Source: Acidobacteriota bacterium
GTDB lineage: Bacteria; Acidobacteriota; Thermoanaerobaculia; Multivoradales; Multivoraceae
DNA: 64,000 nucleotides
NCBI GenBank assembly: GCA_003388555.1
Contig: QQVD01000043.1
Span: 1-64,000 of the forward strand
Reading direction: 5' to 3'
Shown piece by piece: positions 30,975 to 48,413 of this stretch; the first letter of the stretch is position 1, and each line of letters begins with the position of its first letter. Both the position numbers and the translations under genes were made by a program. Below the pieces are notes generated by a model, which saw only the letters and a list, made by a program, of their open reading frames with translations, had not been told where the DNA came from and ran no database searches.

Positions 30975-31054
30975 ACTTCCCAGTGAAGCTCCATTCGCAC
31001 TGAATCGACCGCCTTGAGGGGGGCGGAGAACGGCTGAAGGACCTTTGGCGGCCC
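30975..31054 (+). promoter_or_regulatory. Conserved 80-bp element, copy A
   Basis: About 85% identical (nine substitutions, three gapped bases by eye) to 42313-42389. It starts within a hairpin (CTTCACT-TCCC-AGTGAAG, 30971-30988) and ends GGCTGAAGGACCTTTGGCGG, which includes the probable ribosome site and TTG start of the Rad50-like gene. No other copies were noticed. Confidence 0.75.
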
Positions 31055-33903
31055 GAAGAGACGCGTCAGACCGCGACAGCAATTCCCCCGAGCAGCCGCT
31101 CGACGGCGACCTCCTGCGCGCGCTCCTGGAGCGCCTCGAGGACGGCGAATCCGCCCTCGACGCCAAGAGCGACGGCGCCGCCGCCTTGGTGCTCGCAGCC
31201 CTGCTCGGGGAGGTCGACGCGCACCTCGAGGGCGCCGAGAGCGCCCGCCCCGAGCCCGACGCCACCGCCCGCCACACGCCGCCCCAGGCCTGGCTGCGCT
31301 CGATCACCGTGTGCGGCTTCCGCGGAGTCGGGGAGGCGTGCACACTCGAGCTCGAGCCCACCGCCGGGCTCACCGTGGTGCTCGGGCGCAACGGCTCCGG
31401 CAAGTCCTCCTTCGCCGAGGCCGCCGAGCTCCTCTTCACCGGCCGCAACAGCCGCTGGGACGGCCGCCCCAAGGCCTGGGCCGACGGCTGGCGCAACCTG
31501 CACCACGAAGGCTCGCGCTCGATCGACGCCGTGGTGCGGGTGGACGGCGAGGCCGGCGCCACCACCCTGCAGCGCACCTGGGACGCCAAGAGCCTCAGCC
31601 TCGACGACGCCGAGACCCAGATCCAGCGCCCGCCCGACGCGCCGCCCCTCGAGCGCCTCGGCTGGAGCACAGCGGCCGTCACCTACCGGCCCTTCCTCTC
31701 CTACAACGAGCTCGGCTCGCTGATCGAGGATTCGCCCTCCCGCCTGCACGACGCCCTCGCCGGCATCCTCGGCCTCGACGCCCTCGTGACCCTGGCCGAC
31801 GACCTGCGCCAGCGCCGCCTCGACACCGAGAAGCCGATCAAGGACGCCGAGAAGACCGCCAAGGACCTCGCCCATCGCTGCGAGCAGCTCGCCCAGCCCA
31901 CCGCCGACGCCGACGCTGAGGCTGCAGCCGATCCCTCTTCGGGTGACCCACGCCCAACCGACGAGCGCTTCGCCCAGGCCGCCGCCCTCCTCGGCGTGCG
32001 CGGCAAGCAGTGGGACCTCGACGCGCTGCGCCAGCTTCTCGCCGACCGCGACGACGAGACCGCCCCGCCCGACGCCGACGCCGACGGCACCCACGACTCC
32101 GCCGCCACCGCCGCGAGCGCCCCAGCAATCTCACCCCGTCGCGCCGCCGCCACCCTCGCCGCCTTCGAGCCCCTCGACCGCGCCGCCTACACCCAGAGCC
32201 TCGAAGACCTGCGCGCCGCCCAGCAGCACCTGCACGAGCTCAGCAGTGGGGAAGCCGGACGCGCCGAGCAGCTCCTGCGCATCCTCGAGCCCGCCCTCGA
32301 GCACGTGCGTTGCCAGCACCCGAAGCATCAGCCCACCGCCGACTCCGCCGATCTCGCGGCCACCTCCGTCGCTTCCGTCGCCACGTCCGCCTCCGATTCC
32401 GACTCCACCTCTGCCACCCGCACCTCCGACGCCTCCGACGCCACAGCCGACGCCACCACCACGACGACCACTGTCCCCTGCCCGGTCTGCGGCCAGACCC
32501 CCCTCGACGCCGCCTGGCAAGCGTCTGCCACCGAGCAGATCGAGCGCCTCCGTGCCCAGGTCGCCGAGCTCGCCGCAGCGCGCGACGCCGAAGCCGCCGC
32601 CCGCGCCGCCCTGCCGACGCCGCCACCCGTCGAGCCCCTGCGCACCCTCGACGCCCCCGCCGCGCTCCTCGCCTGGAGCGAGCGTCTCACCGCCGTCCGC
32701 TCCTCCGCCCCTTCCGCCTCCGCCGGCCCAGCCTCCGCCCCTTCGCTCTCCGAGCCCTCCGCTTCCGCCCCCGCCACCTCCGCCACCATCACGCCAGCCA
32801 CGCCGACCCCCGACTCCCTCCTCACCTCCGCCTCCACCGATCTCGACCTGCTCGACGAGCTCCTCCTGCACGCCGGCCACCTCCACCAGCAGAGCGAGAG
32901 CGTCTGGCAGCCCGTCCGCAGGCAGCTCGAGGCCTGGCTGCCCACCGCCCGCCAGACCCTCGACGCCCGGCCCCTCGCCGCCCGCTTCAAAGAGGCCGAG
33001 GCGTGGCTGCGCGATCAGGCCACCCAGCTCTACAACGAGCGCTTCGCGCCGATCGCCGAGGCCGTGCGCCAGAACTGGGACGAGTTGCGCACCGCCAGCA
33101 ACGTCAGCCTCGAGGAGATCCGCTTCGCCGGCAAGGCCACCCGCCGCACCGTCGAGCTCGACGTCACCGTCGACGGCCTCGAGAGCCCCGCCCTCAGCGT
33201 GATGAGCCAGGGCGAGCTCAACGCCCTCGCCCTGTCGCTCTTCCTGCCGCGCGCCACCCTCGATCGCAGTCCCTTTCGCTTCGTGGTGATCGACGATCCC
33301 GTGCAGGCGATGGACCCCGCCCGCGTCGACGGCCTCGCCCAGGTGCTCGAGCGCACCGCCCGCACCCGCCAGGTGATCGTCTTCACCCACGACGACCGCC
33401 TCGCCGAATCGATCCGCCGCCTGCAGATCAAGGCCCGCCTGCTCGAGGTGCGCCGCGGCGAGCGCAGCCAGGTGAGCGTGCACCCGCGCAGCGACGAGGT
33501 GCAGCGCGCCTTCGACGAGGCCTACGCCCTCATCCGCACCGAGAAGCTGCCGCCCTCGGCGCGCGACCGCGTCGTCCCCGGCCTGTGCCGCGTGGCGCTC
33601 GAGGAGGCCGCCCTCGAGGCCTTCCGCCGTCGACGCCTCGGCCGCGGCGAGCCCCACCTCGACGTGCAGGAGACCATCGAGCAGTGCGACAAGCTGCTGC
33701 CCAAGGTCGCCCTCGCCCTGTTCGACGATCCCGGCCGCGCCGGCCACGTGCTCGGCCACCTGAACAACAGCGACCTGCGCCACCAGGCCGACGTCCTCAT
33801 GGCATGCAACAAGGGTAGCCACGGCGGCCTCCAGGGCGCCGCCGACCACCAGTTCCTGCGCAGCGCCAAAGACCTCGCCCAGTACCTGCGGAGCCGCCCG
33901 TGA
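31045..33903 (+). CDS. Rad50/SMC-like ATPase with zinc-hook motif
   Basis: A 952-residue ABC-type ATPase of the Rad50/SMC class. Walker A is LGRNGSGKSSF (about residue 112), with a split arrangement: signature MSQGELNALALSLFL and Walker B FVVIDDPVQAMDP (about 745), H-loop VIVFTHDD. The middle has a coiled coil with CPVCG (about residue 478), a zinc-hook motif that pairs molecules. Around the hook are Ser/Thr/Asp/Ala-rich low-complexity inserts. The TTG start with GAAGGA three bases upstream is uncertain. The stop overlaps the GTG of the next gene, so the two encode a likely complex. Role: probable DNA-end or foreign-DNA sensing in defence. Confidence 0.8.
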   Translation: MAARRDASDRDSNSPEQPLDGDLLRALLERLEDGESALDAKSDGAAALVLAALLGEVDAHLEGAESARPEPDATARHTPPQAWLRSITVCGFRGVGEACTLELEPTAGLTVVLGRNGSGKSSFAEAAELLFTGRNSRWDGRPKAWADGWRNLHHEGSRSIDAVVRVDGEAGATTLQRTWDAKSLSLDDAETQIQRPPDAPPLERLGWSTAAVTYRPFLSYNELGSLIEDSPSRLHDALAGILGLDALVTLADDLRQRRLDTEKPIKDAEKTAKDLAHRCEQLAQPTADADAEAAADPSSGDPRPTDERFAQAAALLGVRGKQWDLDALRQLLADRDDETAPPDADADGTHDSAATAASAPAISPRRAAATLAAFEPLDRAAYTQSLEDLRAAQQHLHELSSGEAGRAEQLLRILEPALEHVRCQHPKHQPTADSADLAATSVASVATSASDSDSTSATRTSDASDATADATTTTTTVPCPVCGQTPLDAAWQASATEQIERLRAQVAELAAARDAEAAARAALPTPPPVEPLRTLDAPAALLAWSERLTAVRSSAPSASAGPASAPSLSEPSASAPATSATITPATPTPDSLLTSASTDLDLLDELLLHAGHLHQQSESVWQPVRRQLEAWLPTARQTLDARPLAARFKEAEAWLRDQATQLYNERFAPIAEAVRQNWDELRTASNVSLEEIRFAGKATRRTVELDVTVDGLESPALSVMSQGELNALALSLFLPRATLDRSPFRFVVIDDPVQAMDPARVDGLAQVLERTARTRQVIVFTHDDRLAESIRRLQIKARLLEVRRGERSQVSVHPRSDEVQRAFDEAYALIRTEKLPPSARDRVVPGLCRVALEEAALEAFRRRRLGRGEPHLDVQETIEQCDKLLPKVALALFDDPGRAGHVLGHLNNSDLRHQADVLMACNKGSHGGLQGAADHQFLRSAKDLAQYLRSRP

Positions 33904-34319
33904 GCCAGCAGACCGCCGCCCCCAACCGCCCGCCCAGCGCCGAGCTCGCCCTCAGCGACCAGCTCCTGGAGCACGCCGACACCTGCCTCCAGCTCGCCGC
34001 CAAGGCCCACGAGCCCGGCCCCAGAGCCTGGCTGCGCGCCTCCGCCCTTCTCCAGCGCCAGGCCTTAGAGACCCTGCTCGAAGCCCTCTACGCCCAGCGC
34101 ATGCCCGGAGTGGAGCACGCCTCCCTCAGGGCCCAGCTCCTCGTCCTCCCCGAGATCCTTCGTTCACCAGCCGGCCTCGCCACCCGCATCGGCGCCGCCT
34201 GGGGCCGCCTCAGCTCCGCCTGCCACCGCGGCGGCGGCATCGGCCTGCAGGGAGTCGAGAGGCTGCGCGAGCCGCTGGGGGTGTTGAGGGAGTGGAGAGG
34301 GCATGGGGTGTGGGGGTGA
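33900..34319 (+). CDS. Small partner of Rad50-like ATPase
   Basis: A 139-residue, mostly helical protein starting at GTG within the ATPase stop codon (four-base overlap). The core ALLQRQALETLLEALYAQRM with LRAQLLVLPEIL and AWGRLSSACHRG resembles HEPN-like helical bundles, but the R-x4-6-H active motif of HEPN RNases is not present in clear form. The obligate coupling implies a two-protein module with the ATPase. Family not recognised. Confidence 0.6.
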   Translation: MSQQTAAPNRPPSAELALSDQLLEHADTCLQLAAKAHEPGPRAWLRASALLQRQALETLLEALYAQRMPGVEHASLRAQLLVLPEILRSPAGLATRIGAAWGRLSSACHRGGGIGLQGVERLREPLGVLREWRGHGVWG

Positions 34320-34426
34320 TGTTGCGGCGGCCACGCCCTTGCGGTGGCCCTTGGAAGAGCGTCCCCGGGTAGGACGTCGGTGACGCTGCACGCACGGCGC
34401 TGCGGTAGATGGTTGTGGAGAGTCCA

Positions 34427-37400
34427 ATGAATGAACCAGGCCAGGTTGGCGAGGCGCCAAGCGCGCAGGACTTCGCGACTCTGGGCGCCAAGCTCGATCG
34501 CGACCGGCGTGACCTGCTCAACCTGGATCTTCGAAACGCCCTCCTCAACTACAAGTTCCCTCGCACGCGTTCCGTGCGCATCGTCGACGAGCTGTCGCAC
34601 GAGGTCTTTCGCATCCTCGTCAGCGAAGAGCGGACTATGTCCTTTCTCGCCGTTCCCGAGGATCAGGAGGATGCCGTTCTCGCCGCGGCTGATGAGACTC
34701 TGGTCGAGGATCTCGATTGGGCGAAGTTGCTGAAGACGGAGGAGGCAGCTGCCGATGTCCCCGGCGACGCAGCCTCTCGGCATTCGGACAGGTACCTTCA
34801 AACGGACTTGTCCAAGGTCCGTCTCGACCGACGGATCCACGCGATCTCGAAGATCGCCCGCACCCTGGTCGAGGAACAGGGTGTCAACGTGCTCTATCTG
34901 GCCCTCGGCTTCCTTAGATGGTTCGAGTCGCCGTCGTCCCAGAAGGCTCTGATGGCTCCGCTGCTGCTCGTACCAGTCCGTGTCGACCGCTACCAGCGAG
35001 GCGGATTTCGAATCCTCTACAGCGGCGAGGACGTGGTGATCAACACCCCGCTATCGGAGAAGTTCCAACAGGACTTCCGTCTCGTGCTCCCTGGGCTCGA
35101 GGACGAGGTCGACCCTCTTCGCTATTTCGAGCAGGTGGAGCGAGCGATCACGGGCCAGGACAAATGGCGGGTTGAGAAGGACCGCATCGCGCTCGGCTTC
35201 TTCTCCTACCTCAAGTACCTCATGTTCGAGGATCTCGATCCTGCGAACTGGCCCGAAGGCGAGAACCCGCTCGAGAACGAGCTCCTGCGAGCCCTTTACG
35301 GAGAGGCCTCGCTTGCGATCGACACCTCCCTTGCCGGCACCGTCAGCGGCACGGGTGACGATCTCACTCTGGACGACCTGTGCCAGGTCATGGACGCCGA
35401 TGGCTCACAGTCGCGAGCGATGCTCGAGGCGCGGCGCGGTGGTCACCTCGTCATACAAGGTCCTCCCGGTACGGGCAAGTCACAAACCATCACCAATCTA
35501 CTGGCGGACGCGATCACCCAACGAAAGAAGGTGCTGTTCGTCGCCGAGAAGGCCGCCGCACTTGAGGTGGTCAAGCGGCGACTCGACCAGGTGGGCCTGG
35601 CTGACGCGGTGCTCGAGTTGCACAGCCACAAGGTGAAGAAGCGCGATGTGGCCGAAGAGCTCGGTCGCTGTCTCAAGCTCGGCAAACCGGTGGAGAGCGA
35701 AGCCGACGTCACCAGTGCCGTTCGACATCGGACGGCTCAGCAACTGGACGCGTACGCCGAGGCGCTGAGGGAGCCGATCAACCAGAGCACTCTCACCCCG
35801 ACTGCCGCCCTTGGCCGCCTGCTCAAACACGGCTATCCCGACCCTGAGATGCCGCTGCTAGGCAACAGGCACGAGTTCGCGCGTTGGACGTCGCACGAAG
35901 CCGTCGAGCGTCTCCGGCAGGTCGAGGAGCTGGACCATCGTCTGCAGGACGCCGGCGCCCTCGCCGGCAACCCTCTGGCTGAATCGCAGCGTACGGGAGC
36001 GCTGTTGCCGCCTGAGGAGTTGCAGTTGCGAGAACAGAGCGCCAAGGCGGCGGACTCCCTCCAGAGATCGCAAGTGGCGTGCTCGGATCTCGCGGAGTTC
36101 ATCGGCGCTCCGAAGCCTGAGAATCTCCAGGGCGGTGAGCGCCTCATTTCCTTCACCGAACATCTGGTCGCGCGCCCCGATCTAGACGGAATCGTCGTCT
36201 CCGACCCTCGATGGGCGCACGAGCAGAAGCGCATGGTACTCCTGCTCGAAGCGTTGGAGCAGCGCCAGCGTGGTCGCGAAAGGCATGGCTCCACCGTCGA
36301 CGAGGCTGCTTGGTCCGCTCCTGTGGATGAAGCTCTCGGGGCGTATCGGGTCTACGGAAGCAAGTGGTGGCGGATGTTGTCCGGCCGGTTCCGTAGCGCG
36401 CGGCAGACCGTGGCCGCGCTCTCCGGGTCCGGTCTTCCCCGCAGAGTGCAGGATCAGCAGGAGCTTCTCGAGGCGATCCGCAGTGACCAAGAGTCGGGGA
36501 AGAAACTGCGGCAGCACGCCGAACTGGGCGAGATCCTTCTGCGGAAACGCTGGCAGGTCGAGTTGACAGACTCGGGTTGGGCTCGTGCCGCCTGCGAATG
36601 GGTGTTCCAGCTTCACCAGAAGACCGGCGAAGCCACTTTTCCGCCCGAGGCGCTGAAGATCGCGACCGGGAGCTGGTCGCAAGAGCGGCTGCAGGAGTTG
36701 CTGGCGCGGGCTCGAGAAGCGTCTGATTCGGCGCGAGGTGCCCTCGAAGAACTCTTGTCCGCACTCGGACTCGGAGTTGAGGCTCGGAGCGCCTCCTACG
36801 ATGAATGGCTCAGGCGACTCGACAGGTGGGCCAGCGACCTCGTTGCACTACGCCTCACGGTTTGGCTTCGCGAGCGCGAAGACGAGTGGAGATCGAAGGG
36901 ACTGGGCGAGGTCTTCGATCTGGCGATCTCTTGGGCGCAGGCGCCGGGTCGACTCGCTGGCCTGCTCGAATACTCACGAATGCTCGCACTGCTCGAGAGC
37001 GCGGCCCAGGCACGCCCCGAACTTCGCGACTTCGAGCGCGCCGCGCACGAGAAGACCCGATTCGATTTCGGGCATGCCGACCGCAAGATGTTCGACCACA
37101 ACAAGGTGCGAGCCGCCGCCGCGCATTGGGAGGGAGTGCCGAATCCGACAGGTGCGGTGGGAGAGGTGGCGTTACTTCTCAGAGAAGCCGCCAAGAAGCG
37201 CCGGCACATGCCGGTGAGGAAGCTCCTCCTCGAAGCCGGTCGCGCGATTCAGCAGGTCAAGCCGATCTTCATGATGAGTCCCCTCTCGGTCGCTACGTTC
37301 CTGCCGCGCGGGCAGGCTCAGTTCGACCTTGTGGTTTTTGACGAGGCGAGCCAGGTCAAGCCGGTCGAAGCGGTGGGCTCGTTGCTGCGAGGACGCCAGG

Positions 37401-39316
37401 CCATCGTCGTGGGAGACAAGAAGCAGCTGCCTCCGACCGCGTTCTTCCAACGTGTCACCTCTGGTGATGAGACCGATGAGGCAGAAGACGAAGGGGTCGC
37501 AGACGACGAGAGCATCCTTTCGACCTTCGACAGTCGCGGAGCGCCCTCGGAGATGCTCGAGGGGCACTACCGCAGCAGGCACCACTCCCTGATTGCCGTC
37601 TCGAACGCCGAGTTCTACGACAATCGGTTGCTGACCTTTCCCAGCGTTGGAGATCCCGAGTCCTGGGAGGGAGTTCATAGACGTCTCCTCGGCGACGCCG
37701 TCTACGACCGGGGGAAGTCGAGTACCAACAAGCAGGAGGCCCGAGCGGTCGCGGCGGAAGTGATTCGGCACTTGGAGGCGATAGAGAAGGCCGCGCTTCC
37801 GAACTACACCCTCGGCGTCGTCGCCTTCTCCATGGCGCAGCAGAAGGTCCTCGACGAGTACATCGACTTCGAGCTTCGGCAGCGGCCGCAGCTCGGGGAT
37901 CTTCTCCACCAGTGGAGGGAGCGCGGTGAGCCCCTGTTCGTCAAGAACCTGGAGAACGTGCAGGGTGACGAACGCGATCGCATCATCATCAGCATCGGCT
38001 ACGGGAAGGCGTCGGACGGTGATCTGTTCCTGAACTTCGGGCCTCTCACGAAGGAAGGGGGTGAACGGCGGTTGAACGTCCTCATTTCCCGTGCTCGGAT
38101 TCGATGCGACGTCTTCAGCAACTTCCGCGCTGCAGACCTGGATCTGAAACGCACGCCCTCGAGGGGGATCGAGGCGCTGAAGCACTACCTCCACTTCGCG
38201 GAGACCGGGCAGCTCGACGAGACCCGCGATTCCGGCAGTTTGCCCGATAGCGTTTTCGAGCAGGAAGTGTTCCAGGCGCTGCGGTCGCGCAACCTGCTCG
38301 TCGAGCGGCAGGTGGGGTTCGGCCCCTACCGGATCGACTTGGCGCTCAAGGACCCCGAGCAACCGGGACGTTTCGCTCTCGGCATCGAGTGCGATGGCGC
38401 CACCTACCACTCGACGGCATGGGCGCGCGATCGAGATCGGCTGCGGCAGGAGGTCTTGGAGAAGAAGGGATGGCGGATCCATCGCGTTTGGAGCACCGAC
38501 TGGTGGCGGAACCCCCAGCGCGAGGTCGATCTCGTGGTTCGCGCGTACGAGTTGGCCCTGGAGGCGAGGACGATTCCAGGCAGCGCGCCTCGGGCGGCGG
38601 CTTCCAAGAAGGACGAGCAGGCCGAAAGGGAGCCTCCGTTAGCTGAGGTCTTGTCGCGACCAGCAGCGGCCAGTCTGGCTCCGACTGAGACTCGCAAAGA
38701 GCCGGAGCGCCTCGCTCCGGTCATCCGACGCCAGGAAGTCCAACCCGACGAGGTCGCAGAGGGCCCGCTCACCCGCCCCTACGAGAAGGCCCCTCTCCCT
38801 GCCATTTCAGGCAGTATCACGAACTCCAGGTGGGACGACCTGATGCGCGCGGCGAAGGTGGTCTTGGAAGTCGAGTCTCCCGTGTCGATGGAAGACTTCG
38901 TGATCCGGATGCGCGAGGCAGCAGGTGTGGGTCGGGCCGGTCGACTGATCCAGAACCATCTCGGCAAGCTCGTCGCCGAGATGCAGAGACAAGGAATCCT
39001 GGAACGCCGAGGCGGCTTTCTCTGGAAGCCCGGCCAGACCGAGGTCGAGGTGCGCGATCGCTCGAGTTTTCTGCAGCAGGAGAAGAAGATCGATCGCGTG
39101 TCTCCGGAAGAGATTCGGGCGGCGCTCCGCGGGGTGTTGCAGCGTGGACACCGGGTGGGTCGCGATGAGCTGCTCACCTCAGCATGTCGCGACCTCGGCT
39201 TCCTCCGCATGAGCAAGGAGATCGGAGCCGCCCTAGGAGCCGTTCTCGAGACGGACCAGAGCATCGCCGAGGTCAGCCCAGGTGTCTTCGCTCTCGCCTC
39301 CGAAGGACCGAATTGA
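34427..39316 (+). CDS. DUF4011-type SF1 helicase with Vsr-like nuclease and DUF3320
   Basis: A 1629-residue protein with the order DUF4011-like N-terminus (LDLRNALLNYKF, about residue 35), UPF1-like SF1 helicase (Walker A GPPGTGKSQT near 346; Walker B VVFDEASQVKPVEA near 975; GDKKQLPP near 1000; VQGDERDRIIISIGYG and LNVLISRAR near 1225), a Vsr/MTES_1575-type nuclease (FEQEVFQALRSR, IDLAL, GIECDGATYH, GWRIHRVWSTDWW; about 1275-1375), and a C-terminal DUF3320-like part. This architecture is known from single-protein anti-phage systems of the Hhe type (from memory). ATG 34427 follows GGAG at a six-base spacing. Stand-alone transcription unit, convergent with the next operon. Confidence 0.85.
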   Translation: MNEPGQVGEAPSAQDFATLGAKLDRDRRDLLNLDLRNALLNYKFPRTRSVRIVDELSHEVFRILVSEERTMSFLAVPEDQEDAVLAAADETLVEDLDWAKLLKTEEAAADVPGDAASRHSDRYLQTDLSKVRLDRRIHAISKIARTLVEEQGVNVLYLALGFLRWFESPSSQKALMAPLLLVPVRVDRYQRGGFRILYSGEDVVINTPLSEKFQQDFRLVLPGLEDEVDPLRYFEQVERAITGQDKWRVEKDRIALGFFSYLKYLMFEDLDPANWPEGENPLENELLRALYGEASLAIDTSLAGTVSGTGDDLTLDDLCQVMDADGSQSRAMLEARRGGHLVIQGPPGTGKSQTITNLLADAITQRKKVLFVAEKAAALEVVKRRLDQVGLADAVLELHSHKVKKRDVAEELGRCLKLGKPVESEADVTSAVRHRTAQQLDAYAEALREPINQSTLTPTAALGRLLKHGYPDPEMPLLGNRHEFARWTSHEAVERLRQVEELDHRLQDAGALAGNPLAESQRTGALLPPEELQLREQSAKAADSLQRSQVACSDLAEFIGAPKPENLQGGERLISFTEHLVARPDLDGIVVSDPRWAHEQKRMVLLLEALEQRQRGRERHGSTVDEAAWSAPVDEALGAYRVYGSKWWRMLSGRFRSARQTVAALSGSGLPRRVQDQQELLEAIRSDQESGKKLRQHAELGEILLRKRWQVELTDSGWARAACEWVFQLHQKTGEATFPPEALKIATGSWSQERLQELLARAREASDSARGALEELLSALGLGVEARSASYDEWLRRLDRWASDLVALRLTVWLREREDEWRSKGLGEVFDLAISWAQAPGRLAGLLEYSRMLALLESAAQARPELRDFERAAHEKTRFDFGHADRKMFDHNKVRAAAAHWEGVPNPTGAVGEVALLLREAAKKRRHMPVRKLLLEAGRAIQQVKPIFMMSPLSVATFLPRGQAQFDLVVFDEASQVKPVEAVGSLLRGRQAIVVGDKKQLPPTAFFQRVTSGDETDEAEDEGVADDESILSTFDSRGAPSEMLEGHYRSRHHSLIAVSNAEFYDNRLLTFPSVGDPESWEGVHRRLLGDAVYDRGKSSTNKQEARAVAAEVIRHLEAIEKAALPNYTLGVVAFSMAQQKVLDEYIDFELRQRPQLGDLLHQWRERGEPLFVKNLENVQGDERDRIIISIGYGKASDGDLFLNFGPLTKEGGERRLNVLISRARIRCDVFSNFRAADLDLKRTPSRGIEALKHYLHFAETGQLDETRDSGSLPDSVFEQEVFQALRSRNLLVERQVGFGPYRIDLALKDPEQPGRFALGIECDGATYHSTAWARDRDRLRQEVLEKKGWRIHRVWSTDWWRNPQREVDLVVRAYELALEARTIPGSAPRAAASKKDEQAEREPPLAEVLSRPAAASLAPTETRKEPERLAPVIRRQEVQPDEVAEGPLTRPYEKAPLPAISGSITNSRWDDLMRAAKVVLEVESPVSMEDFVIRMREAAGVGRAGRLIQNHLGKLVAEMQRQGILERRGGFLWKPGQTEVEVRDRSSFLQQEKKIDRVSPEEIRAALRGVLQRGHRVGRDELLTSACRDLGFLRMSKEIGAALGAVLETDQSIAEVSPGVFALASEGPN

Positions 39317-39319
39317 CCC

Positions 39320-39341
39320 TGCCCCAACTGCTCCTGGGGCA
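39320..39341. terminator. Hairpin between convergent genes
   Basis: TGCCCCA-ACTGCTCC-TGGGGCA, a perfect 7-bp stem three bases after the helicase stop, in the 71-bp gap between convergent genes. No T-run follows, so termination is inferred from position only. Confidence 0.4.
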
Positions 39342-39387
39342 AGAACCGATGACCACCGCGACGACTCCTCGGGTCCTTCGCGTTCTC

Positions 39388-41817
39388 TCAGTGCAGCACC
39401 GCCACCAACTCCGCCAACACCTGGAACCGCTCGTCGTCCTCGTCCTCGATCACGATCGGCTCGAAGGCCGGATCGTCGGACTCGGGACGTAGGACGACGC
39501 GTTTCCTCGGCCGGCCGTCTTCGCCGACCTGCACCTCGCTGGTGTAGCGCTTGAGGGTGAAGCGGCCACCGTGCTCGGGGTCGGCGATGTCGCGGTGCTG
39601 CACCAGGACGATGCGGTTCTGCCTCGTTCCTGCGGGCCGCGCCTTGAAGAGGCAGTACGAGCCGTTGGGCACGCGCCGGTTCATCGACTCGCCGACCACG
39701 CGGGTGAGGAAGAGGTCGGAGGCGAAGTTGAAGTCCCCCGGCAGCTCGACCCACTCCTCGGCCGACGCCGTCTGCTCTTCGCTGAAGAGCCCGGCGGCGA
39801 CGGCGAGGTCGTAGAAGGGCACCGCTCGCTTCGAGGACTCTGCCTCGGCAGGAGTGAGAAAGGGGAGAGGAGCGTCGCTCTTCGACGGCGCCTCCTCGGG
39901 CTCCGTGGCACCCGCCACCCCGGGCGCCACCTTCTTCTTGTCCAGGAAACTTCGGTTCACCGCCGCACGCAGCCACTCGTTGGTCTCGGGGTCGACTGAG
40001 AAGACGTAGCAGCCCCTCATCCCGCGGCTCATCAGGGTGCGGTAGGTGTTCTTGACGATGCGGTCGGCGATGGCGCGCGCTTCGACCGGGTTCTCCTTGA
40101 GCATCTTCTTGATGCCGCGCACGGAGGAGTCGTAGGTGGCCCTCTCCGTTGCATCGGTGACGACCTCGCCGTCCCGCACCACCAGGTCGGGGCCGAGGAT
40201 CACGCCGACGTAGTCGAGCTCGAGCCCCTGGCAGGTGTGGATGCAGCCGATCTGCTCCACCGACTCCTCCTGCAGGATCCACAGGCCGCCGTGGTCGGCG
40301 AAGTTCCACTGCATCTCGAAATCGTGCTCTGGGATCACGACGTCCATGGCCCGCGAGTCCTTCTTGCTGTCCCAAGGCCAGCAGTATCCGGCGACCAGGC
40401 GCGACTTGTTGCGGCCTTCATTGCGCACGCGGATCAGGTCGCGCAGCTCGTTCGGCGATTCGCAGACCCGGAAATCGAAGTCGATGCCGTCGAGGTCGGT
40501 GTGCGCGGTTGATTCGATCTGCAGCACATGGTCGAGCCAGGCGAGGTAGGCGTCCGATCCGTTGCAGCGGAACTGCGACGCCAGCTCGAGGGACGTGGTC
40601 TCGGCGCCGAGTCCCCGCGCGATCTGGGCGATGCTCTCCCGGTCGCCGATGTCACGCAGGGTGACCTGCTGCCGGTCGTCGACGAAGAAGATCGCCGAGC
40701 GGGCCGCGCGCACGATCTCCGCGATCTGGTTGTTGCCCAGGTTCTTGTAGAGCCCCGACTTCTCGGCCAGGCGGTGTGCCTCGTCGACCACGAGGCAATC
40801 GAACGTGTTCGGCGCGGTCTCGATGTAGGAGCCGGAGCCACTGAACAGCGCCTCGATGCGCGCCTTCTTCGTCTCCCCCGCCAGGGTCTCCTTGTAGACG
40901 GCGCGGGGAGCGCTGTTGTTGGTGACGTACTGGGCGTTGAGCTCGCGCTCGCCGACCAGAGCAACCAGCAGATTGACGGCCACCACCGACTTGCCGGTCC
41001 CCGGCCCTCCTTCGACGATGACGACCTGCTTTTTGCGCCCCTCGGGGATCGCTTTGGCGACGCGCTCCAGGCTGCGTTCGTAGACGAGCTTCTGCTCGTC
41101 GATCAGGACGAACGAGCGGTTGCCCTGCAGCAGGCCGACCAGGTGCTCGGCGAGCTGCTTCGACGGCCGGATCCGCCCCTGGTCGATCCGGTAGAGCAAC
41201 GCTCCGCGATCGCCGGTCTTGACGTGCCGGCGGATGAACTCGGCCAGAGCGGCCGCATCGGAGCGGAGGAAGATCGGGGCGTCGACGGTGAGGTGCTCGA
41301 AGCTCGGCGCCTTGAGGATGGCCGACGAGTCGCAGTTGTGCAGGTAGCAGCAAGGGGCGAGCGTCACGTCGGTGGAGTAGACCTCCTCGTTGAAGTCGCG
41401 CAGCAGGGTGGCGTAGCTGTACGCCTGATACGAGGGGTGCGGCACCGACTGCAGTCCGCCGCCCAGGATCGTCGTCACGCAATCCGGCAGGTCGCTCGCG
41501 CTCACCTCCGACCACTGCTTGAGCTCGACGATCACCATCGTGTCGCGCCCGCCCTCGTCCTGGCCGGTGAGCAGGAAGTCGATCCGCTTGCTGGTCGTCG
41601 GGATGCCGTACTCGATCGCGACACCCGTCTCCTCGGGGATCTCCTCGTCCAGCAACACGTTGTTCATGTACAGCAGCGAGTTCTGCCACGAGGCGAACTC
41701 GGAGTCCGCTGTCCTCCGCCCGAGCATCAGGTAGACCGCCTCGCGCACCTTGTCCGCCACGCGGTTGGCGACGACGTCGGCGCGAAACTCCGCCTTGGTG
41801 GCCGAATAGACGATCAT
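39388..41817 (-). CDS. PD-(D/E)XK nuclease-DUF2075 helicase-S24 (LexA/UmuD-like) fusion
   Basis: An 809-residue three-part protein. Residues 60-105 hold a PD-(D/E)XK nuclease core (Asp80 in KRIDFLL, Glu98-x-Lys100 in VIVELKQW). Residues about 260-620 are a DUF2075 SF1-type helicase (Walker A VEGGPGTGKSVV near 269-280, Walker B CLVVDEAHRL near 341). Residues about 666-809 are a peptidase S24 domain: Ala675-Gly676 in AVAAGLFS, Ser711 in VVGESMNR and Lys756 in FTLKRY. The Ala-to-Ser distance of 36 equals that of UmuD (24 to 60). RecA-stimulated self-cleavage could thus release the nuclease-helicase after DNA damage. MazG gene upstream, 15 bp away. Domain calls are firm; the switch is inference. 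Confidence 0.85.
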   Translation of the reverse strand: MIVYSATKAEFRADVVANRVADKVREAVYLMLGRRTADSEFASWQNSLLYMNNVLLDEEIPEETGVAIEYGIPTTSKRIDFLLTGQDEGGRDTMVIVELKQWSEVSASDLPDCVTTILGGGLQSVPHPSYQAYSYATLLRDFNEEVYSTDVTLAPCCYLHNCDSSAILKAPSFEHLTVDAPIFLRSDAAALAEFIRRHVKTGDRGALLYRIDQGRIRPSKQLAEHLVGLLQGNRSFVLIDEQKLVYERSLERVAKAIPEGRKKQVVIVEGGPGTGKSVVAVNLLVALVGERELNAQYVTNNSAPRAVYKETLAGETKKARIEALFSGSGSYIETAPNTFDCLVVDEAHRLAEKSGLYKNLGNNQIAEIVRAARSAIFFVDDRQQVTLRDIGDRESIAQIARGLGAETTSLELASQFRCNGSDAYLAWLDHVLQIESTAHTDLDGIDFDFRVCESPNELRDLIRVRNEGRNKSRLVAGYCWPWDSKKDSRAMDVVIPEHDFEMQWNFADHGGLWILQEESVEQIGCIHTCQGLELDYVGVILGPDLVVRDGEVVTDATERATYDSSVRGIKKMLKENPVEARAIADRIVKNTYRTLMSRGMRGCYVFSVDPETNEWLRAAVNRSFLDKKKVAPGVAGATEPEEAPSKSDAPLPFLTPAEAESSKRAVPFYDLAVAAGLFSEEQTASAEEWVELPGDFNFASDLFLTRVVGESMNRRVPNGSYCLFKARPAGTRQNRIVLVQHRDIADPEHGGRFTLKRYTSEVQVGEDGRPRKRVVLRPESDDPAFEPIVIEDEDDERFQVLAELVAVLH

Positions 41818-41832
41818 GCGGATCGGGCCGGG

Positions 41833-42186
41833 CTAGCGCTCGTACTCGCTGTACTTCTTGGCGCTGCCGCGCACCATGCGGGCGGGATACTTGGAACGAT
41901 TCTTCTCGAGCTTCTCGAAGCTCGAAGCGACCAGGTCGATCTTGAGCTTGTCCGCCAGCCGCACCAGGTAGATCTGGATGTCCGCGAGCTCGTCGGCGAT
42001 CTCCGCGATCCGCTCCGGCGAGGCCGACTCCTCTTCGCTGAGCCACTGGAACTCCTCGAGCAGCTCGCCCACCTCGCCCCCCAGGGCCATCGCCAGGTTC
42101 TTGGGCGAGTGGAACTGGTCCCAGTCCCGTTCCGCGGCGAAGGTGCGGAGCTGGTCGCGGAGTTCTTGCAGGGATCGTTCGGGCAT
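41833..42186 (-). CDS. MazG-like nucleotide pyrophosphohydrolase
   Basis: A 117-residue all-alpha NTP pyrophosphohydrolase. The metal-binding motif is intact: GGEVGELLEEFQW followed by IADELADIQIYLVRLA (E-x-x-E ... D-x-x-D type), then FEKLEKNRSKYP, as in short MazG/dCTPase-like proteins. These hydrolyse (d)NTPs to monophosphates. Start ATG (MPERSLQELRDQL) was chosen over a 90-codon upstream extension, which has no family resemblance and would read through the intergenic element. Stop is 15 bp from the start of the nuclease-helicase, so the two are one operon; nucleotide depletion combined with DNA attack would suit defence. Confidence 0.88.
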   Translation of the reverse strand: MPERSLQELRDQLRTFAAERDWDQFHSPKNLAMALGGEVGELLEEFQWLSEEESASPERIAEIADELADIQIYLVRLADKLKIDLVASSFEKLEKNRSKYPARMVRGSAKKYSEYER

Positions 42187-42312
42187 CGTCGGCCAACTGC
42201 GGCGTCCCGGGTGCTGCCGGACGCCTGCTGTGAGGCCCCCAGCGTAGCCGATGGCCGAATCGGCTCTCGCCGAAGTTTGAGCCGAGGCGCCCGGCGCGAT
42301 AGCGTTGCCGAA

Positions 42313-42389
42313 GCTTCCCCGTGAAGCTTCGTTTGCACTGCATCGACCGTCTGGAGGGGGCGGAGAATGGCTGAAGGACTTGGCGGCCC
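42313..42389 (+). promoter_or_regulatory. Conserved 80-bp element, copy B
   Basis: Second copy of the element at 30975-31054, lying in the 400-bp divergent gap between the MazG operon and the restriction gene. Its 5' end is a strong hairpin CGAAGCTTC-CCCGT-GAAGCTTCG (42309-42331). The hairpin stem differs from copy A but the pairing is retained. The rest of the gap (42390-42585) has only a GGAGG ribosome site before the ATG at 42586. Confidence 0.75.
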
Positions 42390-42585
42390 AACCGGATAGA
42401 CAGCGCGAAGCACCTGCGCGGCCCGAGGGTCGTGAGGTACTCGGCCGGCTCTTCACGCGGCTCGGTGTGTGCCGATCTGCGTCCGTCTGCTGCCCACGCT
42501 CCCGCGCCGCGAGGCGGGCTGGCTCCGCTCGGCCGCCGCGCTGCCACCGCTCGGTGTTGCGGCCGGCGCACCGGAGGACCAGGCC

Positions 42586-45500
42586 ATGAGCGACGACTTC
42601 TTCCGCTCACCGATCCTCAACAACCCCTACGAGCGCCCCGGCGCTTACTGGGAGCTCGACGACGACGGGCAGCCGACCGGCGTCAAGAAGAAGGGTCGTC
42701 GACCTTCCTCCAACGTCACCCCGGTCCCCAAGCCGAAGAAGCGCAAGCTCGCCAAGCAGGTCGAGCTCGACCAGGGCGCCGAGTCCGACGAGCAGCGCTA
42801 CGACGTCAACCGCACGATCAATGACATTCGCAACCGGGTCGACGCCTGGCGTCAGCTCAACAACCCCCACGACTGGCGGGTGACGCCGGAGACGGCGCGG
42901 CTGCTCCAGCACTGGCGGCACCACCGGTTCGCCAGCATCAGGCCCTTCTTCTGCCAGGTCGAGGCAGTGGAGACGGCGATCTGGCTCGCCGAGGTGGCGC
43001 CGAAGCTCGACAAGGGCTCCCGCGACCTGGTCGCCGGGCTGCGCGAGGCCAACCAGGAGGCCAACCCGGAGCTTTTCCGTATCGCGCTCAAGCTGGCCAC
43101 CGGTGCCGGCAAGACCACGGTGATGGCGATGCTGATCGCCTGGCAGACGATCAACGCCATCCGCCACCCCGGCAGCAAGCAGTTCTCGCGCGCCTTCCTG
43201 GTGGTCACCCCGGGCATCACGATCAAGGACCGTCTGCGCGTGCTCCTGCCCAACGACGCCAACGAGTACTACGGCAGCCGCGAGCTGGTCCCCCAGGACC
43301 TGCACCGCGAGTTGCTGCGCGCCAAGATCGTCATCACCAACTACCACGCGTTCAAGCTGCGCGAGAAGACCCAGCTCGCCGCCGGCACCCGGCGCATGCT
43401 CGAAGGTCGCGACGGCAAGCTCGACACCCTCGAGAGTGAAGGGCAGATGGTGCAGCGGGTGATGGGCGAGCTGATGGGTCTGCGCGGAATCGTGGTGCTC
43501 AACGACGAGGCGCACCACTGCTACCGCGAGAAGCCCGAGTCCGACGAGGGCAAGCTCACCGGCGACGCGCGCAAGGAGGCGAACGAGAACGCCGAGGCGG
43601 CCCGCCTGTGGATCAACGGCATCGAGGCGGTGAAGCGCAAGCTCGGCGTCGGCACCGTGTACGACCTCTCGGCGACACCGTTCTTTCTCTCCGGCTCCGG
43701 CTACGCCGAGGGCACCCTCTTCCCGTGGACCGCCTGCGACTTCTCACTGATGGATGCGATCGAGTCGGGCATCGTGAAGCTGCCGCGCGTGCCGATCGCC
43801 GACAACATCTCCGGTGAAGACGCGCCGCGCTACCGCCGCCTGTGGGATCACATCGGCAAGAGGATGCCGAAGAAGGGCCGTGGCAAGAGCGGCGCCTACG
43901 ACCCCAGCAAGCTGCCCACCGAGCTCACCACCGCGCTCGAGGCGCTCTACGGCCACTACGCTAAGACCTTCGAGCAGTGGGTCGACGCGGGCATCGAAGT
44001 GCCGCCGGTGTTCATCGTGGTGTGCAACAACACCACCACCTCGAAGCTGGTCTACGACTACGTCTCCGGCTTCGTGCGGCAGACCAAGGACGGCGACCTC
44101 TTTGTCCCTGGCGCCCTCGAGCTCTTCCGCAACTTCGACGAGCACGGCAACCCGATCCCGAGGCCCCGCACTCTGCTGATCGACAGCCATCAGCTCGAGT
44201 CGGGCGAGGGGATCGACAAGAACTTCCGCGATGCGGCCAGCGCCGAGATCGATCAGTTCCGGCGCGAGATCACCCAGCGCGAGGGCAGCGGGGGAGCCGA
44301 CCGCACGATCAGCGACGAGGAGCTTCTGCGCGAGGTGATGAACACCGTCGGGCAGCAGAACCGCCTCGGCGAGTCGATCCGGTGCGTGGTCTCGGTCTCG
44401 ATGCTCACCGAGGGGTGGGATGCCAACACCGTCACCCACGTGCTCGGCGTGCGCGCCTTCGGCACCCAGCTGCTGTGCGAGCAGGTGGTCGGCCGAGCTC
44501 TGCGCCGCCAGTCGTACGAGCTGAACGAGGAAAATCGCTTCGACGTCGAGTACGCCGACGTGCTCGGGGTGCCGTTCGACTTCACCGCCAAGCCGGTGGT
44601 CGCGCCGCCGCAGCGCCCGGCGCAGATCACCCGGGTCCGCGCCGTCTCCCCCGAGCGCGACCACCTCGAGATCCGCTTCCCCCGCGTCAGCGGCTACCGC
44701 GTCGAGCTCCCGGAGACCGAGCTGCGCGCCGACTTCACCGAGGACTCGAAGCTGGTGCTCACGCCAGACCTGGTCGGGGCTACCAAGACCGAGAACGCCG
44801 GCATCATCGGCGAGATCACCACGCTCAGCGTCGACCATCTCGAGGACGTGCGCAAGTCCCAGGTGCTGTTCGAACTGGCGGCCCACCTGATCTACAACCA
44901 CATGCGCGACCCCGACGGCGCCGCGCGCTACGACCTCTTCCACCAGGTCAAGCGGATCGCCAAGGTCTGGCTCGACGAGCACCTCGAGTGCCAGGGCGGC
45001 ACCTACCCGGCCCTCCTGCTGCGCCAGGAGCTGGCCGAGATGGCCTGCGAGCGCATCCACGCCGCGATCACCGAAGCCCACCGCGGCGAGCGTCGCATGA
45101 CCGCGGTGCTCGATCCCTACAACCCCGAGGTTTCTACCCGGGTGGTCAACTTCACTACCTCGAAGGACACCCTCTGGAAGACCTCACCGCAGAGCAGCCA
45201 CGTCGACTGGGTGGTCTGCGACAGCGACTGGGAAGCGGAGTTCTGTCGCGTCGCCGAGGGGCACTCCCAGGTTGTCGCCTACGTCAAGAACCACGGGCTG
45301 CAGTTCGTAGTTCCTTATCGCTTCGGCGGCAACGCCCGCCAGTACTGGCCCGACTTCATCCTACTCGTCGCCGATCGACCGGACTCTCCCGACGATTTGC
45401 TCCACCTGGTGGTCGAGGTCAAGGGCTACCGGGGCGAGGACGCCAAGGAGAAGGCCAACACGATGCGCACCTTCTGGGTGCCCGGCGTCAACAACGCGCG

Positions 45501-45606
45501 TTCGTTCGGCCGCTGGCAGTTCGCCGAGTTCACCAACGTCTACGAGATCGAGAGCGCCTTCTCGGATCTGATCGAGAAGGCAATCGCAGAGAGCGAGAGC
45601 AGCTGA
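42586..45606 (+). CDS. Type III-like restriction endonuclease (BPTD_3080-type), helicase-nuclease
   Basis: A 1006-residue SF2 helicase-nuclease resembling the Res subunit of type III restriction systems (BPTD_3080-like family). Helicase motifs: I LATGAGKTTV (about residue 169), II VLNDEAHH (about 307), III DLSATPFF, and VI QVVGRALRR. A C-terminal PD-(D/E)XK nuclease reads WPDFILL then VVEVKGYRG (about 922-946). ATG 42586 follows GGAGG eight bases upstream. The next gene, the methyltransferase, starts within its stop codon (TGATG). Together they form a restriction-modification pair, first in the long plus-strand operon. Confidence 0.9.
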   Translation: MSDDFFRSPILNNPYERPGAYWELDDDGQPTGVKKKGRRPSSNVTPVPKPKKRKLAKQVELDQGAESDEQRYDVNRTINDIRNRVDAWRQLNNPHDWRVTPETARLLQHWRHHRFASIRPFFCQVEAVETAIWLAEVAPKLDKGSRDLVAGLREANQEANPELFRIALKLATGAGKTTVMAMLIAWQTINAIRHPGSKQFSRAFLVVTPGITIKDRLRVLLPNDANEYYGSRELVPQDLHRELLRAKIVITNYHAFKLREKTQLAAGTRRMLEGRDGKLDTLESEGQMVQRVMGELMGLRGIVVLNDEAHHCYREKPESDEGKLTGDARKEANENAEAARLWINGIEAVKRKLGVGTVYDLSATPFFLSGSGYAEGTLFPWTACDFSLMDAIESGIVKLPRVPIADNISGEDAPRYRRLWDHIGKRMPKKGRGKSGAYDPSKLPTELTTALEALYGHYAKTFEQWVDAGIEVPPVFIVVCNNTTTSKLVYDYVSGFVRQTKDGDLFVPGALELFRNFDEHGNPIPRPRTLLIDSHQLESGEGIDKNFRDAASAEIDQFRREITQREGSGGADRTISDEELLREVMNTVGQQNRLGESIRCVVSVSMLTEGWDANTVTHVLGVRAFGTQLLCEQVVGRALRRQSYELNEENRFDVEYADVLGVPFDFTAKPVVAPPQRPAQITRVRAVSPERDHLEIRFPRVSGYRVELPETELRADFTEDSKLVLTPDLVGATKTENAGIIGEITTLSVDHLEDVRKSQVLFELAAHLIYNHMRDPDGAARYDLFHQVKRIAKVWLDEHLECQGGTYPALLLRQELAEMACERIHAAITEAHRGERRMTAVLDPYNPEVSTRVVNFTTSKDTLWKTSPQSSHVDWVVCDSDWEAEFCRVAEGHSQVVAYVKNHGLQFVVPYRFGGNARQYWPDFILLVADRPDSPDDLLHLVVEVKGYRGEDAKEKANTMRTFWVPGVNNARSFGRWQFAEFTNVYEIESAFSDLIEKAIAESESS

Positions 45607-48413
45607 TGGCCGCCAAGAAGAAGCGCACCAAGAAGGGCAAGAAGGTCGCGACCTACAAGCACCAGGAAGCCAAGCGCACCAACATCCCCACCGCCGAGCT
45701 GCAGTCGGCCGTCGGGCCCGAGGTCAGCTCACCGCTCGAGGTGGCGATCGGGCGCCGCAACCGCGACCTCGACCCCCAGCTCGTCTGGCGGGGTAAAGAC
45801 GAGCTCAACGCTTCCGATCTGGTTGTGCCTGCCCCTCCTCTCTTCATCCAGGAGAAGGTGCACCCCAAGGTGCTGATCGACGACCTGCTGCGCTCCAGCC
45901 GCAGGCGCGAGACCGAATCGTCCGATCAGATCGACCTCTTTGCCGACTTCAACGGCGCCAGCGACGAGGCCAAGACCACCGACTTCTACCAGCACGAGCA
46001 GAACTGGACCAACCGCATGATCCTAGGGGACTCCCTCCAGGTCATGGCCTCCCTGGCGGAGCGTGAAGGCTTGCGCGGCAAGGTGCAGTGCATCTACATC
46101 GACCCGCCCTACGGCATCAGGTTCAACTCGAACTTCCAGTGGTCGACGACGTCACGCGATGTGAAGGACGGCAAGGCCGACCACATCACCCGTGAGCCCG
46201 AGCAGGTGAAGGCGTTCCGCGACACCTGGCGCGACGGGATCCACTCCTACCTGACCTACCTGCGCGATCGGTTGACGGTGGCGCGGGAGTTGCTAACGGA
46301 GAGCGGGTCGGTGTTCGTGCAGATTGGGGACGAGAACGTGCACCGGGTGAGGGCGTTGATGGATGAGGTGTTTGGGGAGGACAATTTTCTTCGGGTCCTC
46401 ACTTTCAAGAAGACAACCGGCCAGGCTTCAGAGTTGCCGCCGTCGATCTACGACCACATCCTCTGGTACGCGGCAGATCGTTCTCGTGCGAAGACTTGGG
46501 CTCCTCTGAAGAGAAGGCCTCGGGCCGTAGTTGACAAGTCCTATACATGGTTCGAGGCCCGTTTGGGGCAAGTGGCGAGGGCCACCAAGTCCGATCCGCC
46601 CCCTGAGGGCGCTAGGCGCTTCATGACGGCGAGCCTGATGTCGTCCGGCGCTTCGAAGCAGGGGTCTCGCCCCTTCGGGTTTGGGGGTCGCGAGTTCTCG
46701 CCATCGTCAGGAACGCATTGGAAGACCCATCATTCAGGTCTCTCTACCCTCGCCCGGGCCGGACGATTGATCGGTGTCGGGAAGACCCTGGCTTATCGGC
46801 GATTCTCCAGTGACTACGACGCTCAGGTGATTGACTGCGTCTGGACCGATACGCTCCAGAGTACCTTTTCGGTAGAGAATATATATGTAGTGCAGACCTA
46901 CTCGAAGGTGATTCAGCGTTGCCTGCATATGGCGACTGACCCTGGCGATCTGGTCCTCGATCCTACCTGCGGATCCGGCACGATGGCTGCGATCGCTGAA
47001 CAGCTGGGTCGCCGCTGGATCACCGTCGACACTTCCCGGGTAGCCCTCGCTTTGGCCCGAGCCCGAATCATGGGCGCACGCTATCCCTACTACCTCCTCG
47101 CCGACAGCGAGGAGGGGAAGCGCAAAGAAGCCGAGATCTCTCGATCGCCGCCGAGTGACGAGCCGACGCACGGCAAGGTGCGGCAGGGTTTCGTCTATGA
47201 GCGCGTACCGCACATCACGCTGAAGTCGATCGCCAACAACGCCGAGATCGACGTCATCTGGGAGGAGTACCAAGAGCAGCTCGAACCGCTGCGCAAGCAG
47301 CTGAACGACCGGCTCGGCGAGGCGTGGGAGGAGTGGGAGATCCCTCGAGAGCCCGAGGAGGAGTGGGGCGCAGCGGCGAAGGAGGCACACGAGAGGTGGT
47401 GGAAGGCGCGGATCGCCCGCCAGAAGGAGATCGACGCCTCGATCGCCGCCAAAGCCGACTTCGAGTTCCTCTACGACAAACCCTACGAGGACAAGTCGAA
47501 GGTGCGTGTTGCTGGGCCCTTCACCGTCGAGTCGCTCTCACCGCACCGTGTGCTGAGCGTGGGAGCGGACGACGAGCTCATCGATCCTCGCGAGGAGGCT
47601 CAGGAGCGAGGGGCGCGGCACCAGGGCTTCGCCTCCATGGTGCTGGACAACCTGAAGACCGCTGGCGTCCAGCAGGCCGCGAAGGAGGACCGCATCTCGT
47701 TCACCTCACTCCAGGGCTGGCCGGGCGAGTGGATCTGCGCCGAGGGTCGCTATGTCGAGGGTGCGAACGAGGAAGGGGAGGGCGGCACGGAACGCCGCGC
47801 CGGCATCTTCGTCGGGCCGGAGTTCGGCACCGTCGGCCGCCAGGATCTCGTGCGTGCGGCCCGAGAGGCCGCCGACGCCGGGTTCGATGCGGTCATCGCA
47901 TGCGCCTTCAGCTTCGACGCCCACAGCGCCGAGTTCAACCAGCTCGGCAAGGTCCCCATCCTGCGCGCCCGCATGAACGCCGATCTCCACATGTCTGGCG
48001 ACCTCGCCAACACCGGATCCGGGAACCTCTTCGTGATCTTCGGCGAGCCCGACATCGAGATCCAAGAGCAGGAAGACGGCCGCGTCACCGTCCAGATCCA
48101 CGGCGTCGACGTCTTCGATCCCCAGTCCGGCAAGGTCCGCTCCGGCGGCCCCGACGACATCGCCTGCTGGTTCATCGACACCGACTACAACGACGAGAGC
48201 TTCTTCGTCCGCCACGCTTACTTCCTCGGCATCCAGAGCGACCCCTACAAGGCGCTCAAGACCACCCTCAAGGCCGAGATCGACGCCGAGGCTTGGGAAA
48301 CCCTCAACAGCGACACCTCCCGCCCCTTCCCCAAGCCCGAGTCCGGCAGGATCGCTGTCAAGGTCATCAACCACCTGGGCGATGAGGTGATGAAAGTCTT
48401 CAGGATCGAATGA
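45606..48413 (+). CDS. Site-specific DNA methyltransferase, beta class (type III-like Mod)
   Basis: A 935-residue adenine/cytosine-N4 methyltransferase of the beta class: motif IV DPPYG (about residue 165) comes before motif I DPTCGSGT (about 452). A Lys-rich N-terminus (MAAKKKRTKKGKKVATYKH) may bind DNA. The intervening segment, about 46380-46960, should include the target-recognition domain; it has markedly lower GC (some 60-bp lines near 42%) than the flanks. The long C-terminal part (about residues 620-935) is typical for partners of BPTD_3080-type enzymes. It is coupled to the Res-like gene by TGATG and to the next gene by ATGA. It protects host DNA. Confidence 0.9.
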   Translation: MAAKKKRTKKGKKVATYKHQEAKRTNIPTAELQSAVGPEVSSPLEVAIGRRNRDLDPQLVWRGKDELNASDLVVPAPPLFIQEKVHPKVLIDDLLRSSRRRETESSDQIDLFADFNGASDEAKTTDFYQHEQNWTNRMILGDSLQVMASLAEREGLRGKVQCIYIDPPYGIRFNSNFQWSTTSRDVKDGKADHITREPEQVKAFRDTWRDGIHSYLTYLRDRLTVARELLTESGSVFVQIGDENVHRVRALMDEVFGEDNFLRVLTFKKTTGQASELPPSIYDHILWYAADRSRAKTWAPLKRRPRAVVDKSYTWFEARLGQVARATKSDPPPEGARRFMTASLMSSGASKQGSRPFGFGGREFSPSSGTHWKTHHSGLSTLARAGRLIGVGKTLAYRRFSSDYDAQVIDCVWTDTLQSTFSVENIYVVQTYSKVIQRCLHMATDPGDLVLDPTCGSGTMAAIAEQLGRRWITVDTSRVALALARARIMGARYPYYLLADSEEGKRKEAEISRSPPSDEPTHGKVRQGFVYERVPHITLKSIANNAEIDVIWEEYQEQLEPLRKQLNDRLGEAWEEWEIPREPEEEWGAAAKEAHERWWKARIARQKEIDASIAAKADFEFLYDKPYEDKSKVRVAGPFTVESLSPHRVLSVGADDELIDPREEAQERGARHQGFASMVLDNLKTAGVQQAAKEDRISFTSLQGWPGEWICAEGRYVEGANEEGEGGTERRAGIFVGPEFGTVGRQDLVRAAREAADAGFDAVIACAFSFDAHSAEFNQLGKVPILRARMNADLHMSGDLANTGSGNLFVIFGEPDIEIQEQEDGRVTVQIHGVDVFDPQSGKVRSGGPDDIACWFIDTDYNDESFFVRHAYFLGIQSDPYKALKTTLKAEIDAEAWETLNSDTSRPFPKPESGRIAVKVINHLGDEVMKVFRIE

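Follow-up and report, generated by a model that had tools for sequence, protein, structure and literature searches.

When modification fails or DNA suffers damage, a cell must keep its DNA-cutting defences off its own chromosome; how it does so has long been asked, and to our knowledge has been answered in detail only for a few E. coli Type I enzymes. The locus described here, which lies in a stretch of 64,000 nucleotides from an Acidobacteriota bacterium (the window), raises the question of why a large nuclease-helicase should end in a domain of the kind with which LexA, lambda CI and UmuD cleave themselves. The original prediction placed such a LexA/UmuD-type domain on an effector rather than on a repressor, and this stands. 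The Pfam scan of the window protein found no HTH, and the part ahead of the tail consists of nuclease and helicase. As a post-translational switch on an effector, linked to DNA damage, the domain is a plausible candidate.

The fusion gene and its S24 tail

The gene and its surroundings are laid out in Table 1. The helicase had been predicted to be of the DUF2075 kind, and Pfam bears this out: SLFN-g3_helicase (PF09848, formerly DUF2075) covers residues 263-609 with an E value of 5e-102 and 342 bits against a cut-off of 24, and in structural comparison the helicase part matched UvrD (Z 21) and human SLFN11 (Z 19). The predicted PD-(D/E)XK nuclease was borne out in its motif, D80-x17-E98-x-K100, which is kept across a 10-sequence alignment, and in a partial match to PADLOC PDC-S41 (60.8 bits in two stretches, residues 4-319, the best of which covers positions 6-292 of the 657-position profile). 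Motif and partial match together fit a putative PD-(D/E)XK nuclease in the N-terminal part. A phmmer comparison of the whole window protein with PDB sequences gave no match, and there was no polymerase among the scanned genes neighbouring the fusion gene.

Table 1. Positions in the window of the fusion gene, its parts and the genes around it.
Feature	Position	Strand	Basis
Fusion gene P0001, PD-(D/E)XK nuclease / SLFN-g3 helicase / S24, 809 aa	39388-41817	-	ORF and Pfam
PD-(D/E)XK nuclease core (putative), about residues 60-160, D80...E98-x-K100	41338-41640	-	Motif in 10-sequence alignment
SF1 helicase, Schlafen group 3 type (PF09848), residues 263-609	39991-41031	-	Pfam and structural matches
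Linker, disordered, residues 623-661, varying among relatives	39835-39951	-	pLDDT <50; gaps in alignment
S24 (LexA/UmuD-type) self-cleavage module, residues 663-809	39391-39831	-	Pfam, alignment, AF2 model, fold matches
Predicted scissile bond Ala675/Gly676	39790-39795	-	P1 Ala/Cys 110/110, P1' Gly 104/110
Ser711, catalytic by S24 likeness	39685-39687	-	Kept in 110/110 tails
Lys756, catalytic by S24 likeness	39550-39552	-	Kept in 110/110 tails
MazG-like nucleotide pyrophosphohydrolase; opens the gene pair and stops 15 nt short of the fusion gene	41833-42186	-	PF12643, E 5e-12
SMC/RecF-like ATPase	31045-33903	+	Pfam/PADLOC
ProA/PDC-S37 DUF4011 helicase	34409-39316	+	Pfam/PADLOC
BPTD_3080-family restriction enzyme	42469-45606	+	Pfam/PADLOC
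DNA methylase	45654-48413	+	Pfam/PADLOC

That the C-terminal ~145 residues are a peptidase S24 domain, as first proposed, is upheld by Pfam, in which Peptidase_S24 matches residues 667-802 at 25.8 bits, just above the cut-off of 23.3, and by the LexA/CI/UmuD fold of the predicted structure. Modelled by AF2 with 64 relatives as input, the tail reached a pLDDT of 85 and a pTM of 0.81, and its best Foldseek match was the lambda CI hyper-cleavable fragment (best E 2e-5). VIA gave Z scores of 11.6 to 9.7 against the lambda CI fragment, LexA and UmuD', with T. maritima LexA at 11.6 and E. coli LexA at 11.2; for another E. coli LexA structure, 1jhc (Z 11.1), model residues 16-160 superposed on LexA 75-197, and RecA-filament-bound structures of LexA, UmuD and CI scored about 10. 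In the full-length model of the window protein the tail is a separate domain and the linker at 623-661 is disordered (pLDDT <50). The residues named in the original prediction, A675 before G676, S711 and K756, with an Ala-to-Ser spacing of 36, are exact in the sequence, where A674 precedes A675, and the Ser711-Lys756 distance of 45 recurs in 98 of 110 complete tails. The scissile triplet lies in a short helix of the tail model, which may be an error of the model or a conformation that does not permit cleavage. Against the profile of their own family most tails reach 150-260 bits, compared with roughly 25-42 bits against Pfam S24, and by these scores the tail family is a separate S24 sequence subfamily.

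The fusion gene is surrounded by a dense defence island (31045-48413). The host genome encodes RecA and ClpX, and an independent genome search, which placed the S24 domain at the same position, found no S24 proteins in that genome other than the window fusion and one LexA. A MazG-like gene lies upstream of the nuclease-Schlafen helicase in about a dozen loci, forming a two-gene system with it. Since this gene adjoins the body both with and without the S24 tail (a tail-less body with a MazG partner is seen in L071), the tail is best regarded as an add-on to a pre-existing two-gene system; no MazG relative was found at the loci of the other tailed body types.

Spread and exchange of the module

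Searching 396 genomes of the window's phylum at the protein level recovered full-length relatives, relatives of the body that have no tail, and about 30 tail-only matches, the last lying at the ends of other large proteins; the module is present in 34 of these genomes. Searched singly against genome contigs, the window protein found no relative, but an alignment of the tails used as query did. With a profile of the tails, at least 394 relatives were confirmed in a named genome collection and 80 were kept, those with a recognisable phylum belonging to Acidobacteriota, Planctomycetota, Pseudomonadota, Gemmatimonadota, Omnitrophota, Bacteroidota, Myxococcota, Actinomycetota, Thermodesulfobacteriota, Verrucomicrobiota and several others. 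The module is thus carried by at least about 115 distinct proteins in well over ten phyla, and because the tail is a widespread module the question shifts from an odd fusion to a general control device.

The bodies of the ~115 tailed proteins were clustered by blastp and named from representatives scanned with Pfam and PADLOC. Type I HsdR is the most frequent (29 tailed, and a further 4 with the module inserted), followed by DruE-like DEAD-helicase/MZB proteins (24), the nuclease-Schlafen type of the window (13), PLD/ResIII Type IV-like helicases (9), DUF3037 (9), Type ISP/IIG (7), Type III Res (5), DrmMI/IIG-like methylases (4), HTH_3 (2) and isolated examples, among them an HNH-methyltransferase fusion. 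So the majority of hosts are DNA-cutting or DNA-translocating parts of defence systems. One HsdR-S24 gene adjoins HsdM and HsdS (L047) and another adjoins HsdM (L115).

Several of these proteins have features of their own. A Type ISP-S24 protein of 1681 aa (L079:2441-7486) also matches an IS200-like Y1 transposase domain over residues 652-728; a planctomycetal protein (L103:1519-5481) joins a HIT domain, matching PADLOC ThsC, to a PLD/ResIII helicase and S24; and in an Omnitrophota locus a partial second S24 copy of 74 aa (L143:7751-7975) directly follows the nuclease-helicase-S24 gene. The DUF3037-S24 proteins are of 260-270 aa (L065, L066, L106, L132, L137, L138, L139, L145 and L151), and at L137 and L139, the loci whose genes were read throughout, they lie beside the same kind of upstream gene with no visible restriction genes. 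The repressor-like HTH_3-S24 proteins (L093, L110) have tails that group with those of restriction enzymes. A stand-alone S24 protein as the usual form was considered and rejected, as one candidate proved to be the truncated terminal part of a Type ISP gene (L119) and another starts near a contig end (L056); two small S24 frames (L064, L109) are the stand-alone cases left over.

Among phage records no relative of the module was found, only ordinary repressors and tail-less bodies, and viral contigs held three relatives. The only plasmid carrier is that of Halomonas sp. PA16-9 (L155:7920-10390), in which body and S24 tail lie in different frames with the break in the linker region, due to either mutation or sequencing error.

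In four EcoEI-type HsdRs (L053, L054, L113 and L140), which form one clade with support of 100, the module is not appended but lies inside HSDR_N, where it separates the first helix from the catalytic RADYVL...IEAK strands. A cyanobacterial orthologue without S24, 77% identical, cleanly lacks the inserted piece and is itself truncated further on. With the module in this position, cleavage would split the nuclease domain.

On a tree of the 110 tails the host-body label must change at least 27 times; one acquisition per body would need 10 changes and shuffled labels need a mean of 72. The figure of 27 is a minimum-change count on one tree, which came from a brief search and has weak support at many forks. 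The window type stands in more than one place on this tree, once where the window protein groups with L033 and L034 (support 97) and again as a separate Bacteroidota/Omnitrophota group. Over its body the HsdR of L045 shares 79% identity with a Type I enzyme encoded on a plasmid, the match ending before the tail, and the window-type body without a tail is a complete protein in several bacteria and archaea. Judged by these comparisons of sequence, the module is portable and has moved between unrelated bodies.

Predicted cleavage and what it would do to the enzyme

No homologue without the Ser/Lys pair, the case named at the outset as contradicting a self-cleaving domain, was found: both residues are invariant in 110 of 110 complete tails, the search pattern by which some of the tails were gathered having fixed S-M-[EN]-P and left the Lys and the scissile site free, so that conservation of Ser711 is independent only for the loci of the window's phylum that came from the protein search. 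P1 is Ala in 104 tails and Cys in 6, the Cys-Gly form being as in UmuD, and P1' is Gly in 104, Ser in 5 and Thr in 1, while positions 672 and 677, which flank the scissile site, are among the most variable of the domain. Such invariance of Ser, Lys and P1 Ala/Cys is the trace expected from selection for a working scissile bond and would be hard to explain otherwise.

The predicted N-terminal fragment ends in AAA (71 tails), VAA (27), AAC (6) or IAA (3), together 107 of 110, within a pattern, L-x-[AV]-A-A, that resembles both cleaved LexA and the host tmRNA tag. The tag of the host, ANDNLALAAA, is close to the L-K-A-A-A of the module, and its own LexA has the cleavage site IAA/G. In E. coli LexA and in LexA-like proteins of S. 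mutans, ClpXP degrons lie directly before the scissile bond (PMC5742171).

Based on these observations, we propose that the module, portable and cleavage-competent, acts as a damage-triggered off-switch on DNA-cutting or DNA-translocating defence enzymes, a reading in which our confidence is evenly balanced. Cleavage, the RecA trigger, removal by ClpXP and the shut-off itself are all steps that we infer. First, DNA breaks, including the enzyme's own cuts in host DNA, would give rise to RecA-ssDNA filaments. A filament would then stimulate the Ser711/Lys756 dyad to cut the same chain after Ala675, and the nuclease-helicase would be left with a long unstructured C-terminus ending in ...LAVAA-COOH, a LexA/ssrA-like signal for ClpXP. 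Finally, ClpXP would degrade the cleaved nuclease-helicase and cutting would stop, which would amount to restriction alleviation. Where the module is inserted in the nuclease domain, the cut itself would break the enzyme. Several points argue against such an off-switch. The alleviation of E. coli EcoKI is stated not to be an SOS function (PMC11109961). Disarming a defence upon DNA breaks could also disarm it during infection. The degron logic is weakened in that [AV]-A-A/G is partly the generic look of an S24 site, and it would not be universal, since in the inserted class only a short peptide gets an ssrA-like end. Furthermore, the module appears also on DUF3037 and HTH_3 proteins, which have no obvious link to DNA cutting, and on methyltransferase-type proteins (ISP, DrmMI-like).

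The original prediction had the switch turn the other way, with the S24 tail keeping the nuclease-helicase inactive until RecA-stimulated cleavage frees it against phage or damaged DNA. Activation by S24 cleavage has a precedent in the conversion of UmuD to UmuD', and in the model the body is folded independently of the tail behind a flexible linker, so that an intact body would be released. In addition, PMC13192584 reports DruE as late-acting on ssDNA-containing replication intermediates, where RecA filaments could form. Against this, complete bodies without a tail are common, cleavage in the four HsdRs would split the nuclease domain, and the freed fragment would carry an end like a ClpXP degron. 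Type I and Type III enzymes are, moreover, already gated by DNA recognition. We favour the off-switch on these same grounds, namely that the tail is optional on enzymes that need no activation step, that the inserted modules would destroy a nuclease and that the left-over fragment ends like a degron; activation is unlikely, and the direction first proposed is probably the wrong way round.

A self-cleaving switch could also answer to something other than RecA filaments, such as a phage antirepressor-like protein, oxidative stress or a MazG-linked nucleotide. The module resembles phage repressor tails, lambda CI being its best Foldseek match, the window's body usually has a MazG-like enzyme as its partner, and for the LexA-like protein IrvR, PMC7101444 reports cleavage outside the RecA paradigm. 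However, the MazG partner also accompanies tail-less bodies (L071) and was not found at the loci of other tailed bodies, and the closest folds, LexA, CI and UmuD, all use RecA. We consider a different signal quite unlikely.

That the module does not cleave at all, its S24 fold serving for dimerisation or for docking on RecA-ssDNA with the catalytic residues as relics, we hold to be very unlikely. UmuD-type domains do dimerise, and a docking role would suit ssDNA-related enzymes, but relic residues should decay, whereas Ser, Lys and P1 Ala/Cys persist in every one of the 110 very divergent tails and the scissile triplet forms a conserved island amid a variable stretch. A chance fusion or assembly artefact in one genome, which the window viewed alone would permit and for which the frame break in the sole plasmid copy could speak, has next to no probability, given that a full-length relative of 56% identity occurs in the same family and that the same body is fused in Bacteroidota, Omnitrophota, Planctomycetota and one Syntrophobacterales genome; a one-off fusion is ruled out by these other fusions.

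Relation to known systems and implications

The module shares with LexA, lambda CI and UmuD the predicted fold, the Ser-Lys dyad, the Ala/Cys-Gly scissile site and the spacing. While those proteins pair it with a DNA-binding domain or a polymerase partner, the module is found on nuclease-helicase and restriction bodies; UmuD is a short stand-alone partner of UmuC, whereas the window module is the C-terminus of an 809-aa protein. The latent degrons of E. coli LexA and of S. mutans IrvR and HdiR similarly lie beside the scissile bond and are exposed by self-cleavage (PMC5742171). Those degrons destroy small repressors; the hosts of the module are large defence enzymes.

Type I restriction alleviation is alike in having a motor/nuclease subunit as its target, in its proposed purpose, to limit self-damage, and in its proposed executor, ClpXP. 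In the alleviation of EcoKI, HsdR is degraded by ClpXP (PMC4231737 and PMC11109961), a process that PMC11109961 states not to be an SOS function. The substrate there is the translocating complex, with no identified degron. In contrast, the module would build the trigger into the enzyme.

The window protein resembles the PDC-S41 and Schlafen group 3 (DUF2075) nuclease-helicases in its order of nuclease and then SLFN-g3 helicase, with the PDC-S41 likeness partial, and adds to them the S24 tail and the upstream MazG-like gene; the DruE and YprA-family helicases correspond to the bodies of 24 tailed proteins. The words S24, LexA and peptidase are absent from the main text of the 2025 YprA-family preprint (PMC12458937), as are S24 and LexA from the main texts of the 2026 BREX census, the 2025 restriction-biology review and the 2024 Type IV census. 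Searches of the open literature turned up no account of an S24 module on a restriction or other defence enzyme; earlier notice in subscription papers or InterPro architectures is possible.

Whether one exchangeable self-cleaving module serves as a general, RecA-read safety fuse on DNA-cutting defence enzymes of many phyla is a wider claim, and one that we put a little short of evenly balanced. If true, the enzyme would carry its own route of restriction alleviation, which would act at the protein level through the very event that sets off the SOS response, and immunity would be tied directly to the SOS signal without transcription. Type I, Type III, ISP/IIG, Druantia-like and Schlafen-type enzymes would then have one shared answer to the question of self-protection, and the module would be a ready-made, damage-controlled degron.
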